The notes below the pieces were generated by a model. It was given only the letters and a program-made list of their open reading frames with translations. It did no database searches and was not told where the DNA came from. A program made the position numbers and the translations under genes. Shown here in pieces: positions 25,204-31,719 of a stretch of DNA of 64,000 nucleotides (position 1 is the stretch's first letter; the number at the start of each line of letters is the position of its first letter). This DNA is from Acidobacteriota bacterium (lineage in GTDB: Bacteria > Acidobacteriota > Polarisedimenticolia > J045), in assembly GCA_030949985.1 (NCBI GenBank), contig JAUZRX010000058.1:1-64000 (forward strand), read 5' to 3'.

Positions 25204-26547
<1,344 letters not shown>

Positions 26548-26593
26548 AGCTATTCGCCTTTATCGGAAACACGGGATGGTGGGGGTCCGCGCC

Positions 26594-26622
26594 ATGATAC
26601 GGACCGTCAGGGCTCTTGCCCA
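26594..26622 (-). promoter_or_regulatory. Possible promoter of icd
   Basis: On the minus strand TGGGCA (26617-26622) and TATCAT (26594-26599) are 17 bases apart. This would start transcription near 26587 and leave a 40-base leader. It overlaps the last codons of the upstream small gene. Moderate match only (4 of 6 at -35). Confidence 0.35.
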
Positions 26623-26891
26623 GCCCGGCGATCGGCCTCGGCCAGTTCGATCTCCCGCAGCAGCGCACGAACGGCGGCCGCCGCGGCGGAGAGACCCGCC
26701 AGCACCCCGTGCTCGTAGAGAAAATGGGGGTCACTTCGGAGGCGGGGGATGTCGTCGGGGCAGTAGAGATCGTCCAGGCTGAGATCCGGGCAGATCGCCT
26801 CGCCGATGCGACGCAGTTTGGCTTCCTGCTGGGCGACCAGTTCCTCGCTCAGGGTGATGAGCCTGGCCTGCAGGGACTGCTGGCTGTCCAT
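26607..26891 (-). CDS. Small hypothetical helical protein
   Basis: A 94-residue protein that I do not recognise. It is predicted mostly helical: a Gln/Glu-rich N-terminal helix (residues 1-25), a central segment with ICPDLSLDDLYCPDDIPRL carrying two Cys, and an Ala-rich C-terminal helix. No signal peptide. The ATG at 26891 is preceded by GGAGAGG at suitable spacing, which favours translation. It lies 59 bases upstream of icd on the same strand and is divergent from the sulfatase-like gene. It may be a small partner or regulator, but nothing in the sequence says so. Confidence 0.6.
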   Translation of the reverse strand: MDSQQSLQARLITLSEELVAQQEAKLRRIGEAICPDLSLDDLYCPDDIPRLRSDPHFLYEHGVLAGLSAAAAAVRALLREIELAEADRRAGQEP

Positions 26892-26944
26892 GGTCTCGCC
26901 TCTCCCCGGGGTTTGTGGGCGGGCGTCCGCCGCCGGGGCAAGGA

Positions 26945-26950
26945 TAGAAT
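26945..26950 (+). promoter_or_regulatory. Possible -10 element for leader ORF and sulfatase-like gene
   Basis: TAGAAT in GC-rich surroundings ends 7 bases before the ATG at 26958, the spacing expected for a leaderless transcript. No -35 hexamer at 17 bases. It lies in the 66-base gap to the divergent small gene. Confidence 0.4.
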
Positions 26951-26957
26951 AGCCCGC

Positions 26958-27029
26958 ATGTTTCCACGACCGCCCGTAGAACGGGCCCGCCATCGAGAGC
27001 CCCGACCCTTGGCCCGCGCTCCCCGATGA
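26958..27029 (+). CDS. Putative 23-residue Arg/Pro-rich leader peptide
   Basis: An ATG placed 8 bases after the TAGAAT element opens a 23-codon frame (begins MFPRPPVERARHRE) whose TGA overlaps the ATG of the following membrane protein in an ATGA junction. Thirteen of 23 residues are Arg or Pro. No ribosome binding site lies before either the leader or the main gene start, so leaderless initiation on the peptide followed by termination-reinitiation is a consistent reading. Poly-Pro and Arg codons could stall ribosomes and tune expression. It could equally be a chance frame in GC-rich DNA. Confidence 0.4.
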   Translation: MFPRPPVERARHREPRPLARAPR

Positions 27030-29059
27030 TCGACCCGCGCCGTTGGAGTGCCCGGGTTGCGAACCTGGGGCTGGTGGTCTTCGGGCTGGCGGTGGTGGTG
27101 CTGCTGGGCACCGGTGGGACCCGCGTGCACCTGGGGACCCTGGGCATCAGCCTCTTCCGCCTGACCAACCCGCTGCAGGGCCTGTTCCTCTTCGCCGCGC
27201 TGAGGGTGCTCACCGCGCGCCGGGGCGCGGGCCTCGAGGGGTGGCTGATTCGTTTCTACGCCCGCCAGGGTATGGCGCCGCGCCACGCGCCCGCCGGGCC
27301 GCCGTCCGCGCTGCGTTCCGGGGTCTGGCTGGGGGCGGGGTTCGGCACCGTACTGGGCCTGGTCGACGCCCTGCGGGTGCTGACGGCGGGTTTTCACCCG
27401 GGACCGCGCTGGCTCGACGCCATCGCGTTGCTGCTGCTCTCCGTGCTGGCGGGGTGGCTGCTGGGCGCCGGCCTGGGCGCGGCCTTCTCCATGACCGCCC
27501 TGGGCGTCGGCCGCCTGTTCGGCGCTCGGCCCGGGCGCTATGCCCTGGGTCGCTGGACGGTCGCCTTCCTGCTGGCCGTCTCGCCCTTGCCCCTGCGCTG
27601 GGGATCCGGCACCGCGCCCCCCGGCCGACTGCTCTTTCTCGCCGCCCTGGCGCTGGTGGTGACGGCGACCGTCTTCCTGCTCCTGCCGGCGGTGGTCCTG
27701 CGGGCGCGGCGGGGAAGCTGGGGGCTGGCGATCACCAGCGGTGGGGCCCTGGCCCTGGCCGTCGGGTTGCTGGCGACCGGCGCGGTGGGCCCTGCGCTGC
27801 GCGACGGAAACCGGCCCGCCGGCACCCATCCCAACCTGTTGCTGGTCAGTGTCAGCGGCTTGCGGGCGGACGTCCTCAGCCTCTACCGGTCCCGGGCCGA
27901 ACCCACCCCGAACTTCGACGCCCTGGCCTATCGGGGCGTGCACTTCCGCGCGGCCCAGGCCCCTTCGACCTCGGTGGTCTCCTCCGCCGCCTCCCTGCTC
28001 ACCGGGCTCTACCCTTCCTCCCACCGGCAGGAGGGGCCGGTGCGCGGCTGGCGCCCGCCGAGCCTGCCCGGAGCGCTGGCCTCCCACGGCTACGCCACCG
28101 CGGCCTTCGTCTCCTGGCGGCGCCTGGACGGGCAGCGCACGGGACTGGCCGACTATTTCCATGTCTACGATGACCTGACCGGCCTGCAGGACTGGCTGGC
28201 CCGGGCCACGCTGGGCCGCTTCTGGCGGTCCTTCTCCCGGGTCCCCGGGCGGAGCATCCGGCCCGCGGGAGAGACTGTCGAGCGCTTTCGGCACTGGCTC
28301 GGCCGATCGAGCGGGGGGCCCTGGTGCGCCTGGGTCGAACTGGCGGGTCCGGCCCGCCCGACGCCCCGGCCTTCGGCGAGCGGGAGGCGGGCCGGCGAGG
28401 TGGATCCGATTCCCCTGCCGCCCCGCTGGGCCGACCCGGACCAGCGGAGCCAGCCTCTCAACGCCTGGCTGAGGGGCTACCAGGAGCAGGTGCTCGAGGC
28501 CGACCGGGCCGTGGGGGAAATGTGGGAATTGCTGCGCGCGCGGGGGGAATTGCACCGCACGATCGTGGTGCTGGTCGCCGAGCACGGTATTTGCCTGGGA
28601 GAGGGCGGGGTGTGGTTCGAGGCGGGGTCCGCCCTCCCCGAAGGGGTGCTCCACGTCCCCTGGATCGTCGCCGGTCCGGGGGTCGATCCCGGGGGCAGCG
28701 TGCAGGGGCCGGCCTCCCTGGTGGACGTGGCGCCCACCGTGCTGGGACTGATCGGCCTGGCCAGCGGGCGCCGCTGCGAGGGGGAGGATCTCTCCCGTTA
28801 TCTCGTCGATCCTCGTTCGATTCCCCGCGATCCCCAGTCCGGCCCCGTTTTCAGCGAGTCCCTGCCCGGTCCCGTGAGCGGGGACCGGCTCTACGCCGTG
28901 CGTTTCGGCCCCTGGAAGCTGGTGCGCCATCCCGACGGCAGCGAACGCTTCTACATCATCGAGGGGGTGGAGCGCGAGGTCCTGTCGTTCCGAGGCCGCC
29001 AGGAACGCCTGCGTCGACAGATCTCGGACATGCTGGGCGACTGGCTGGCCAGGCGATAG
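27026..29059 (+). CDS. Membrane-anchored, degenerate sulfatase-like protein
   Basis: A 677-residue protein with about seven membrane helices in residues 1-260, then a periplasmic alkaline phosphatase/sulfatase-fold domain. The fold is recognisable from LRADVLSLYRSRAEPTPNFDALAYRGVHF, STSVVSSAASLLTGLYPSSH (motifs read separately), VVLVAEHG and a normal sulfatase C-terminus with ISDMLGDWL. But the first metal-ligand Asp of the family motif (D-T-x-R-A-D) is Ser277, and the Asp of the late DHG motif is Glu519. No Cys/Ser in a C/S-x-P-x-R context is present. It is probably catalytically altered or inactive. It precedes bamA by 35 bases on the same strand. Confidence 0.75.
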   Translation: MIDPRRWSARVANLGLVVFGLAVVVLLGTGGTRVHLGTLGISLFRLTNPLQGLFLFAALRVLTARRGAGLEGWLIRFYARQGMAPRHAPAGPPSALRSGVWLGAGFGTVLGLVDALRVLTAGFHPGPRWLDAIALLLLSVLAGWLLGAGLGAAFSMTALGVGRLFGARPGRYALGRWTVAFLLAVSPLPLRWGSGTAPPGRLLFLAALALVVTATVFLLLPAVVLRARRGSWGLAITSGGALALAVGLLATGAVGPALRDGNRPAGTHPNLLLVSVSGLRADVLSLYRSRAEPTPNFDALAYRGVHFRAAQAPSTSVVSSAASLLTGLYPSSHRQEGPVRGWRPPSLPGALASHGYATAAFVSWRRLDGQRTGLADYFHVYDDLTGLQDWLARATLGRFWRSFSRVPGRSIRPAGETVERFRHWLGRSSGGPWCAWVELAGPARPTPRPSASGRRAGEVDPIPLPPRWADPDQRSQPLNAWLRGYQEQVLEADRAVGEMWELLRARGELHRTIVVLVAEHGICLGEGGVWFEAGSALPEGVLHVPWIVAGPGVDPGGSVQGPASLVDVAPTVLGLIGLASGRRCEGEDLSRYLVDPRSIPRDPQSGPVFSESLPGPVSGDRLYAVRFGPWKLVRHPDGSERFYIIEGVEREVLSFRGRQERLRRQISDMLGDWLARR

Positions 29060-29094
29060 CGAGCCCCTGCGATGCAGGCTAGTCTGTGGCGGAC

Positions 29095-31719
29095 ATGAGC
29101 TTGGAGACCGGAAAACAGAGGGCCCCGCTGCGGGCATGGGCCATGCTGGGGGTCCTTTTGGGGACCCTTGTCGGGGCCGTCGCCCAAGGCACAGGGGAGG
29201 GGCAGGACTGCTCGACGATCTACGCCATCGAGGTCCGGGGCAACCGGCGGATGAGCGCCGACGCCGTGCGCTTCGATCTGGGTATCAAACCCGGCGATCC
29301 GTGGAACGAGGCGCAGATCCGGCGCGAGTACCGGCGGTTCTGGGAGAGGGGTTACTTCTCCGACCTGCGCTTTTTCAAGCGCTGCGACCCCGAGGGGGCG
29401 GTCCTGATCGTGGAGCTCGAGGAGCGACCCACGATCCTCGAGGTCGACTACCAGAAGGTCAAGGCGGTCAGCCAGCAGCAAATCGAGGACTACTACGAGG
29501 AACGGGATTTCACCCTCGGCGTGGGTTCTCCGCTGGACCGCAAGAAGCTCTGGCGGGCGGAGGCCCTGATCCGGGATCTGCTCGGCCAGAAGGGATATCT
29601 CGACGCCAAGGTGAAGGCGGTGGTGGAGGAGCGCTCACCCTCCACTCGTTCGGTGTTCTTCCGCATCGTGCCCGGTGGCAAGACGAAGATCCGCAAGCTG
29701 GATTTCGTCGGCAACAAGGCCTTCAAGGACGGCAAGCTGAAGGATCGCCTGGAACTGACCCGCGAGTGGCGCTGGTGGTGGCCGTTCTCCCGCAAGGCGC
29801 TCTATCACCCCTTGAAATACCAGCAGGACGTGACCCACGTCCTGCAATACTACCGCGATCACGGGTACCTGGACGTGGACGTCCGGCCGCCGATCGTCGA
29901 AATCAAGACCGTGCGCAGTCGCCGGGCCGAGGACAAGGCCCGCAGGCGCGCCGAGAGGGAGGCCCGCAAAAAGAGGCGGAAGGCTGAGCGTGAGCGCCGG
30001 AAGCAGGCGAAGACGGCTGACCTCGAGGACGAGCTTCCCCCCCTGCCGCTGGCCCGGGGCGACCGCGCCGGGGCGGAAGCCGACGCAGATCTTGAACTCG
30101 AAGTCAAGGAAAAGAAATGGGTCTACCTCACCATTCCCGTCGAGGAAGGGGAGGTCTATCGGCTGGGCGAAATCACCTTCGAGGGCAACCAGCTTTTCGA
30201 CGACCGGTTCTTGCGCGCCCTGTTCCCGCTGCGCGAAGGATCGGTGCTGGCCGACGGGGCCATCGAGGCGGGACTGGAGAGGATCAAGCAGTTCTACGGC
30301 CGGCGGGGCTACGTCTACGCGGTGGCCTCGCGGCGCTTCGAGCGTCACGAGGGGGAGTTCGTCGCGGACGTGGTGGTGCAGATCGACGAGGACCAGGCCT
30401 ACACCATCGACACCATCGAGTTTCGCGGCAACACCACCACCCGCGACGAGGTTCTTCGCCGCGAGCTGAACGTGGTCGAGGGCGGCGTCCTCGACCGCCA
30501 GGCCCTCGATGTCTCGATGCAGAAGTTGCGGCAGCTCGCCTTCTGGGTGCCGGGAGAAGAACCGACCCTCGAGCCCGATCCGGACGCCGCGGAAGTCGAC
30601 GTCATCATCGACGGCGAAGAGCAATCCCGTAACGAGATCCAGGTCGGCGGCGGTTACAGTGAGCTGGAGGGCGGCTTCTTCCTCGCCAGCTACCAGACCC
30701 GGAATTTCCTGGGGCGGGGCGAATCACTGAGTTTCTATGCCTCGGTGGGCGGCCGTGCGAGCCGCGCGGCGATCTCCTTCGTCGAACCGTGGTTCATGGG
30801 CAAGCCCTATACTTTCGGCTTCACCATCTCCCGCCGTTCGCTGGACTTCGGGCGGGCCCGGGACGCGGCCGGCGCCTTGCAGCGGTTGTCCCAGACCTCC
30901 ACGGGCGGGTCGATCATGGTGGGCAAGCGACTGGGCAACTACAGTTCGTTCCAGGTGCGCTACAGCTACGAGAACATCAGCGCCGACACCCTCGACCTCT
31001 CCCAGGACTTCGCCCAGACCGAAACCCGCATCGCCTCCATCACGCCGCTTTTCAATTACCGCAACGTCAATAACTTCCTTCGTCCGACCCGGGGCTTCGA
31101 GTTGCTGATCCTTCCGCAGATCACCTCGGATCTGCTGGGCTCGGAGGCGAGTTACTTCAAACCGCGGATCGAGAGCAGTTGGTACAAGCCGGTCTTCCGG
31201 CGCTTTTTCCTGGCGATCCACGGCGAAGTGGGCTGGGTCCGGCCCTTCGGCGGCGTCCACCGGGAGGCGGGCTTCGTCTCCGGCGTGCCGCGCTTCACCC
31301 GCTTTTTCATGGGGGGTGACACCATCGGGCCGCGGGTTTTCGAAACCCGCTCGCTCTCGCCGGTGCGCTTCATCCTGCCCGTCGATCAGAGCGGCAACCC
31401 GATCCCCGATCCGATCACCGGCATCGCGGTGCCGCGGCCGGTGCTGGTCGGGGGGAGCAAGTTCGGCCTGCTGCAACTCGAGTTCGGCATCCCCATCGGT
31501 CGCACGGCGACGATGGCGGCCTTCTTCGACGCCGGTGGTGTGTACGACAACGGCGAGAGCTGGAGCCTGTCGACCGCCCGCATGGCCGCCGGGTTCGAAT
31601 TCCGGGTCTTCCTGCCGGTCTTCCAGGCGCCGATCCGCCTGATCTACGGCTGGCCCGTGCGTGAGCAGCCCGGTGACCGCACCAACAGTTTCCAGTTTTC
31701 CATCGGCCTGCCTTTCTAG
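29095..31719 (+). CDS. bamA: Outer membrane protein assembly factor BamA
   Basis: An 874-residue Omp85-family protein that folds and inserts beta-barrel proteins into the outer membrane. Signal peptide at about residues 12-32; POTRA-type repeats (VRGNRRMSADAV, VDYQKVKAVSQQQI, LDFVGNKAFKDGKL, ITFEGNQLFDDRFL, IEFRGNTTTRDEVL) up to about residue 500; then a 16-strand barrel with GFTISRR, MGGDTIGPRVFE (lid region) and a C-terminal beta-signal ending in Phe. A very basic insertion (residues 273-338) separates the third and fourth POTRA repeats. ATG 29095 is preferred to GTG 29086, which lies inside a possible -10 element (TAGTCT, 29080-29085). Its stop shares CTAG with the convergent dacB stop. 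Confidence 0.9.
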   Translation: MSLETGKQRAPLRAWAMLGVLLGTLVGAVAQGTGEGQDCSTIYAIEVRGNRRMSADAVRFDLGIKPGDPWNEAQIRREYRRFWERGYFSDLRFFKRCDPEGAVLIVELEERPTILEVDYQKVKAVSQQQIEDYYEERDFTLGVGSPLDRKKLWRAEALIRDLLGQKGYLDAKVKAVVEERSPSTRSVFFRIVPGGKTKIRKLDFVGNKAFKDGKLKDRLELTREWRWWWPFSRKALYHPLKYQQDVTHVLQYYRDHGYLDVDVRPPIVEIKTVRSRRAEDKARRRAEREARKKRRKAERERRKQAKTADLEDELPPLPLARGDRAGAEADADLELEVKEKKWVYLTIPVEEGEVYRLGEITFEGNQLFDDRFLRALFPLREGSVLADGAIEAGLERIKQFYGRRGYVYAVASRRFERHEGEFVADVVVQIDEDQAYTIDTIEFRGNTTTRDEVLRRELNVVEGGVLDRQALDVSMQKLRQLAFWVPGEEPTLEPDPDAAEVDVIIDGEEQSRNEIQVGGGYSELEGGFFLASYQTRNFLGRGESLSFYASVGGRASRAAISFVEPWFMGKPYTFGFTISRRSLDFGRARDAAGALQRLSQTSTGGSIMVGKRLGNYSSFQVRYSYENISADTLDLSQDFAQTETRIASITPLFNYRNVNNFLRPTRGFELLILPQITSDLLGSEASYFKPRIESSWYKPVFRRFFLAIHGEVGWVRPFGGVHREAGFVSGVPRFTRFFMGGDTIGPRVFETRSLSPVRFILPVDQSGNPIPDPITGIAVPRPVLVGGSKFGLLQLEFGIPIGRTATMAAFFDAGGVYDNGESWSLSTARMAAGFEFRVFLPVFQAPIRLIYGWPVREQPGDRTNSFQFSIGLPF
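29911..30108 (+). other. Basic, coiled-coil-like insertion in BamA
   Basis: This codes for residues 273-338 of BamA. The first half is almost only Arg, Lys, Ala and Glu (for example ARRRAEREARKKRRKAER), predicted as a long charged helix; the second half is acidic and Pro-rich. It lies between POTRA 3 and POTRA 4 and is not part of the POTRA fold. Confidence 0.7.

Follow-up and report, generated by a model that had tools for sequence, protein, structure and literature searches.

The leader frame and its surroundings

The window, by which we mean the whole 64,000-nucleotide stretch of DNA analysed here, has a GC content of 68-75% and belongs to a genome of 3.7 Mb in 133 contigs. The features around the frame under study are the following.

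26607..26891, minus strand: divergent small gene, 94 aa from the chosen ATG, on the far side of the promoter region
26945..26950, plus strand: -10-like hexamer TAGAAT, presumed leaderless promoter without a recognisable -35
26958..27029 including the stop, plus strand: leader ORF of 23 codons, putatively leaderless (read directly and recomputed)
27026..27029, plus strand: ATGA stop-start overlap (read directly and recomputed)
27026..29059, plus strand: downstream gene, 677 aa, membrane/sulfatase-like, with a hydrophobic N-terminal half and a C-terminal sulfatase-superfamily domain
29095..31719, plus strand: bamA-type gene with POTRA repeats and Omp85 (Pfam), the next gene downstream

The short frame starts at ATG 26958-26960, 7 nt behind the TAGAAT box, and encodes the 23-codon peptide MFPRPPVERARHREPRPLARAPR with 13 Arg and Pro residues. 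Its TGA (27027-27029) overlaps the ATG of the next gene (27026-27028), which is the first ATG, GTG or TTG of the 677-aa frame. Direct reading and recomputation confirmed each element of this arrangement as given in a preliminary description of the locus. The same description had stated that the downstream gene lacks a Shine-Dalgarno (SD) sequence, and indeed no GGAG, GAGG or AGGA is present at positions -18 to -5 of its start. The stretch GGATAGAATAGCCCGCATG is identical in a relative from the same genus (L009).

At 16-18 nt from the TAGAAT box, the best match to the -35 consensus TTGACA covered only two of the six bases, and a promoter scan of 26500-27200 gave no prediction on the leader strand. 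In composition-matched shuffles of the leader that presuppose the TAGAAT box, the full layout arose in 0.65% of cases (p 0.0065). In this test the second codons were taken from real genes, which allows for the frequent RTGA at starts. Since 43 genes were called in the window, the single sighting is not significant alone.

Conservation of the layout in orthologous loci

The 677-aa gene was matched at E<=1e-40 in 10 of the 12 genomes of the family, its own included. The compared genes are very likely orthologs since bamA adjoins them in 9/9 relatives and homologs of the small divergent gene lie beside them in six of the eight relatives with upstream DNA (L009, L011, L012, L014, L015 and L016). 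Outside the family, matches at E<=1e-50 were found in 4 of 29 other genomes of the class; they had partial coverage and much lower scores and were excluded from the counts. A scan of the genome contigs returned one locus, on the same contig as L009.

Nine of the ten loci had readable upstream DNA and were used, while L010 was dropped because its contig ends inside the gene. As found in the orthologs, the layout consists of a T[AG]GAAT box followed after 6-10 bases by an RTG, a frame of 16-28 codons and a stop that overlaps the gene start or lies 3 nt before it. In one fixed-rule scan within this Acidobacteriota family, whose rules had been set after visual inspection of these same ortholog loci, we found the layout in 8/9 loci, the window included, and in six of the seven testable genera. 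The absence of the small frame from close relatives had been named beforehand as one of two observations that would speak against a translated leader, and the scan gave the opposite result.

The leaders of the eight loci are 23, 23, 27, 16, 28, 17, 24 and 27 codons long and, in the same order, their box-to-start gaps are 7, 7, 7, 10, 7, 9, 7 and 6 nt. The deviations among them are the gaps of 9 or 10 nt in two loci and one box that reads TGGAAT. The distances between the two starts are 47, 57, 68, 68, 71, 80, 80 and 86 nt, and leader and gene are in the same relative phase in 7/8 loci. The junction is ATGA in five loci and GTGA in one. It is GTGATG in L014, where the gene may start at either the GTG or the ATG, and in L015 the gene GTG follows the TGA of the leader after 3 nt, in the same frame as the leader. 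The ninth locus, L011, lacks the layout despite full upstream DNA: its TAGAAT is 146 nt upstream and is not followed by a start codon.

With the box given, the shuffle probability per locus was 0.006-0.036, and at 0.036 each, at least five of the six other genera would be positive with a probability of 3.5e-7. It is the conservation, rather than the single sighting, that carries the case for the layout being more than chance.

Comparison with other genes

Six other coupled cases were found (L035, L037, L069, L168, L170 and L183). Four of the genes concerned were used for comparison, namely gpsA (L035), a 192-aa secreted protein (L037), a MerR-type regulator (L183) and a KorA-type gene (L170), each of them chosen for showing a leaderless coupled frame in one genome; L069 and L168 stayed outside the comparison. 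Of the 31 other usable loci, none keeps the layout with the strict box and two keep it with the loose box. Against the 7/8 loci of the 677-aa gene, Fisher's test gave 5e-7 and 2e-5, respectively. These values serve only as guides, as related genomes are not independent, and the contrast is softer than they suggest since some of the comparison homologs may not be orthologs. Protein similarity, and not synteny, was the criterion for picking them, and the weak matches reach E 4e-16 for the MerR-type regulator and 1e-16 for the secreted protein.

The 31 loci are counted without the four seed loci and without L104, which has no upstream DNA. L102, with about 65 readable upstream bases and the remainder N, is among them, and L113, a second adjacent copy in genome G003, lay outside the scan. 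The sister species (L106) keeps the leader frame of the secreted protein, with TAAACT as its box, and L112 shows a 12-codon match with the loose box.

What is conserved in the leader

Compared with the nearest relative, which is 84% identical, the leader shows no indel in 69 nt and matches at 42/69 bases and 11/23 residues. The identities are spread evenly over the codon, with 14, 13 and 15 of 23 at positions 1, 2 and 3. For codons 1-100 of the gene the same comparison gave 88, 97 and 66 of 100, which is the usual coding pattern. The peptide itself is apparently not selected. What is kept is the start codon behind the -10 box, the open frame and the stop at the gene start.

Initiation signals at the gene start

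None of the eight layout-positive gene starts has an SD core (GGAG/GAGG/AGGA at -18 to -5), while one is present in 173 of the 364 genes called in this genome, compared to 69 after shuffling. The probability of 0/8 is 0.0057 relative to called genes and 0.19 relative to shuffled sequence. No TANNNT was found 4-10 nt before any of the eight starts. Pairing with the anti-SD was at or above the genome median (-6.2) in L012 (-7.2), L016 (-6.2) and L017 (-8.6).

Leaderless-type starts across the lineage

In the own genome, TAGAATN{6,8}RTG occurs at 27 sites and the reversed pattern at 2. Across the 12 family genomes there are 292 TAGAAT-RTG sites and 31 sites of the reversed-pattern control. We examined 135 of the 292 (55 + 80), and 105 of these (36/55 + 69/80) open a long frame with coding-like codons, where long means at least 60 codons or running off the locus. 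A survey of 464 kb of this genome, in which 364 genes were called, placed the peak of -10-like boxes 7-8 nt in front of candidate gene starts. No -35 signal was detected in 97 TAGAAT promoters of leaderless-type genes of the family. The -35 scan and the stricter coupling test described below omit 10 of the 135 loci that are cut off by a contig end.

Since TAGAAT-RTG exceeds the reversed pattern, the frames behind it are coding-like and the boxes peak at 7-8 nt, leaderless starts seem to be commonplace in the lineage, alongside SD starts. TANNNT boxes about 10 bp before starts are interpreted in PMC3160421 as leaderless genes in many bacteria.

We then compared how often leaderless short frames of the family and other short frames close to gene starts are coupled, leaving the window locus out of the test side. 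A lenient test gave 6/23 leaderless frames and 82/202 controls, with no excess; its test set held three frames under 3 codons and the control held none. A stricter test likewise found no excess (5/20 and 39/197, p 0.38). Both are weak tests, since gene starts came from a home-made caller and leaderless starts were taken from the box rather than from mapped 5' ends. The high control rate is likely due in part to the A that follows the start codon in 49% of called genes, which makes RTGA common at starts. The 464-kb survey of the own genome yielded four candidates, the window locus included, in which a box precedes the frame by 5-9 nt. Coupling as a general mode of this genome, which 3 coupled cases among the 27 own-genome sites had suggested, was rejected as the two control comparisons showed no enrichment. 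Without a genome-wide excess, our claim is limited to the 677-aa gene.

A leader that may deliver ribosomes to the overlapping start

We consider it probable that the 23-codon frame is a leader which delivers ribosomes to the overlapping gene start. Transcription would begin at or beside the A of ATG 26958, as the TAGAAT 7 bases upstream suggests. The ribosome would load on this 5'-terminal start codon without an SD sequence, presumably as it does at the many leaderless genes of the lineage, and would translate the short frame regardless of its sequence up to the TGA within ATGA. The terminating ribosome would then reinitiate at the ATG overlapping this stop. The membrane/sulfatase-like gene that begins there has itself neither an SD core nor a promoter box. 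Since the arrangement is kept in relatives while the peptide changes freely, the job of the leader is probably this hand-over. The preliminary description had proposed a translated leader that controls downstream initiation, possibly by ribosome stalling on Pro/Arg codons. A leaderless frame coupled to the gene start agrees well with the layout in 8/9 loci, and the stalling part of the proposal did not hold up.

Stalling would mean that pausing on the Arg/Pro-rich nascent peptide or its codons controls the initiation or the transcription of the gene. The leader of the window does invite this reading, with Arg and Pro making up 13 of the 22 residues after the first Met, compared to a shuffled mean of 7.8 (P 0.0045), and with 11/23 in L009. 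However, Arg+Pro falls below the shuffled mean in 4/8 loci (L012, L014, L016 and L017), the 16-28-residue peptides share no common motif by eye, and close relatives show no codon-position bias. Length and sequence both vary. Nor does the RNA point to a regulatory element: leader structure is no stronger than in base-shuffled copies (z -1.1 to +1.4), no terminator was found in 26500-27200, and Rfam at E<=1 gave no match in the leader. The sole match, RF02975 at 26578-26627 on the minus strand, lies outside the leader and scores 20.2 bits with a gathering score of 37.8. An RNA element was rejected on these grounds and an Arg/Pro stalling peptide on the composition, length and sequence of the orthologs; we regard stalling as very improbable. 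A functional microprotein made from the leader would explain the conserved open frame, but sequence, length and composition are all unconserved among the eight loci, and this reading has hardly any probability left.

Translation of the leader might do no more than melt structure over the gene start so that a fresh 30S subunit initiates there. Structure prediction places most bases around the gene start in pairs (an unpaired fraction of 0.23-0.47 from -15 to +12), and three loci have moderate G-rich stretches, which fits such new initiation. On the other side stand the lack of an SD core at all eight starts and the stop-start distance, which ranges from a 4-nt overlap to a 3-nt gap and is tighter than melting alone requires. 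We therefore think new initiation unlikely. The frame might also be a chance product of a GC-rich 5' UTR, with the gene initiated independently. Short frames near gene starts frequently end at an in-frame RTG or TTG by chance, the single-locus p is only 0.0065 and the ortholog L011 lacks the layout. Against this, one and the same scan found the layout in 8/9 loci and in 0/31 comparison loci, and chance appears quite improbable.

The ribosome-delivery reading has a bolder version that we find doubtful, in which an obligatory leaderless entry route would have been kept in several genera for an envelope gene beside bamA, which would be expressed only via 5'-terminal loading and reinitiation. If this were true, the level of the gene would be tied to conditions that favour leaderless translation (IF2/IF3 balance, 70S pool, stress) in bacteria whose starts are otherwise widely of the SD type.

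Relation to known coupled leaders

Leaderless coupled small ORFs are described in mycobacteria, with an RTG start, 5-50 codons and an RTGA overlap (Shell et al. 2015, PMC4633059). For these, coupling is sometimes conserved above the peptide (the example in their Fig. 6B) and ribosome delivery was proposed. The leader described here has 23 codons, and 16-28 in the eight loci, thus lying within 5-50. It shares the RTGA overlap (ATGA or GTGA in 6/8 loci, GTGATG in one and a 3-nt gap in one). Its architecture also outlasts the peptide, with the layout in 8/9 loci and 11/23 residues shared with the nearest relative. It differs from the mycobacterial class in belonging to another phylum, in being seen in six genera at one locus and in the gene start without an SD core. 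Moreover, the coupled class is over-represented genome-wide in mycobacteria (PMC4633059), whereas we looked for such enrichment here and did not find it. We would regard the locus as a further case of this class in another phylum, as the locus-level features that could be tested were found.

Coupling was strict in 13/14 overlapping gene pairs of Haloferax and E. coli, and termination-reinitiation at ATGA/TGATG overlaps was shown experimentally, often aided by an SD motif (PMC6728339). The overlap geometry is the same as here, and in those pairs the downstream gene needs upstream translation. Unlike in those pairs, the frame in front of the gene is here a leader of 16-28 codons that presumably lies at the 5' end. 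A review (PMC12548453) presents a short upstream ORF that "delivers" the ribosome and serves only to drive translation of the downstream gene; our leader would have this role, which is treated there as a general concept rather than for this locus. Among the matches listed in the literature search (titles and the beginnings of abstracts, mostly of non-subscription literature), none reported a coupled leaderless leader in Acidobacteriota. Among the papers listed for Acidobacteria or Acidobacteriota and leaderless genes, PMC3160421 and PMC10783764 included, likewise none concerned a coupled leader, judged by titles and the beginnings of abstracts.

The conserved locus offers a comparative case for a bacterial leaderless mini-ORF that would owe its retention only to its frame and overlap. 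The case predicts that the starts which need coupling are those with neither an SD core nor their own promoter box. It also shows that richness in Arg and Pro does not by itself mark a peptide as a stalling one when the genome has a high GC content. Such short frames are easily overlooked by annotation. The cysteine-responsive leaderless leader ORFs of mycobacteria studied by Canestrari in 2020 reportedly need a particular amino-acid content. Our leader resembles them as a leaderless short ORF before a gene and is unlike them in that no amino-acid content is conserved. The Canestrari study is cited in PMC9094748.

The downstream gene, its neighbours and a second leader

In the 677-aa protein, Pfam places the sulfatase-superfamily domain PF00884 at residues 269-577, and the N-terminal half was judged hydrophobic by eye. 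In active members of this superfamily an Asp precedes LRAD, and a Cys/Ser nucleophile motif and DHG are present. The sulfatase-like domain looks degenerate, since the proteins of this family have at the corresponding places S/T/E, variable residues, and AEHG, TAGHG, SAERG and others. The protein is possibly a non-catalytic envelope protein that is kept beside bamA.

The listed frame of bamA opens at GTG 29086, and the start used here, ATG 29095, is our choice. An apparent leaderless-type box, TAGTCT (29080-29085), lies 9 nt before this ATG. The GTG directly adjoins the box and probably does not serve as a start. By eye, 9/10 family loci, our own included, have TAGNCT or TACGCT 8-10 nt ahead of the ATG presumed for bamA, and L011 has CATAAT 7 nt ahead of its ATG. 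Since bamA seems to have its own leaderless-type box in 9/10 loci, it is probably independent of the leader. The divergent small gene at 26607-26891 gave no Pfam match.

A second leaderless coupled leader, of 29 codons, stands before the gene of the 192-aa protein, by eye a probable lipoprotein, in L105 and L106 (G000:C44 and G001:C330). With the strict box, none was found in its more distant homologs. In both species of the genus this leader has equal length, and the middle of its peptide is largely different.
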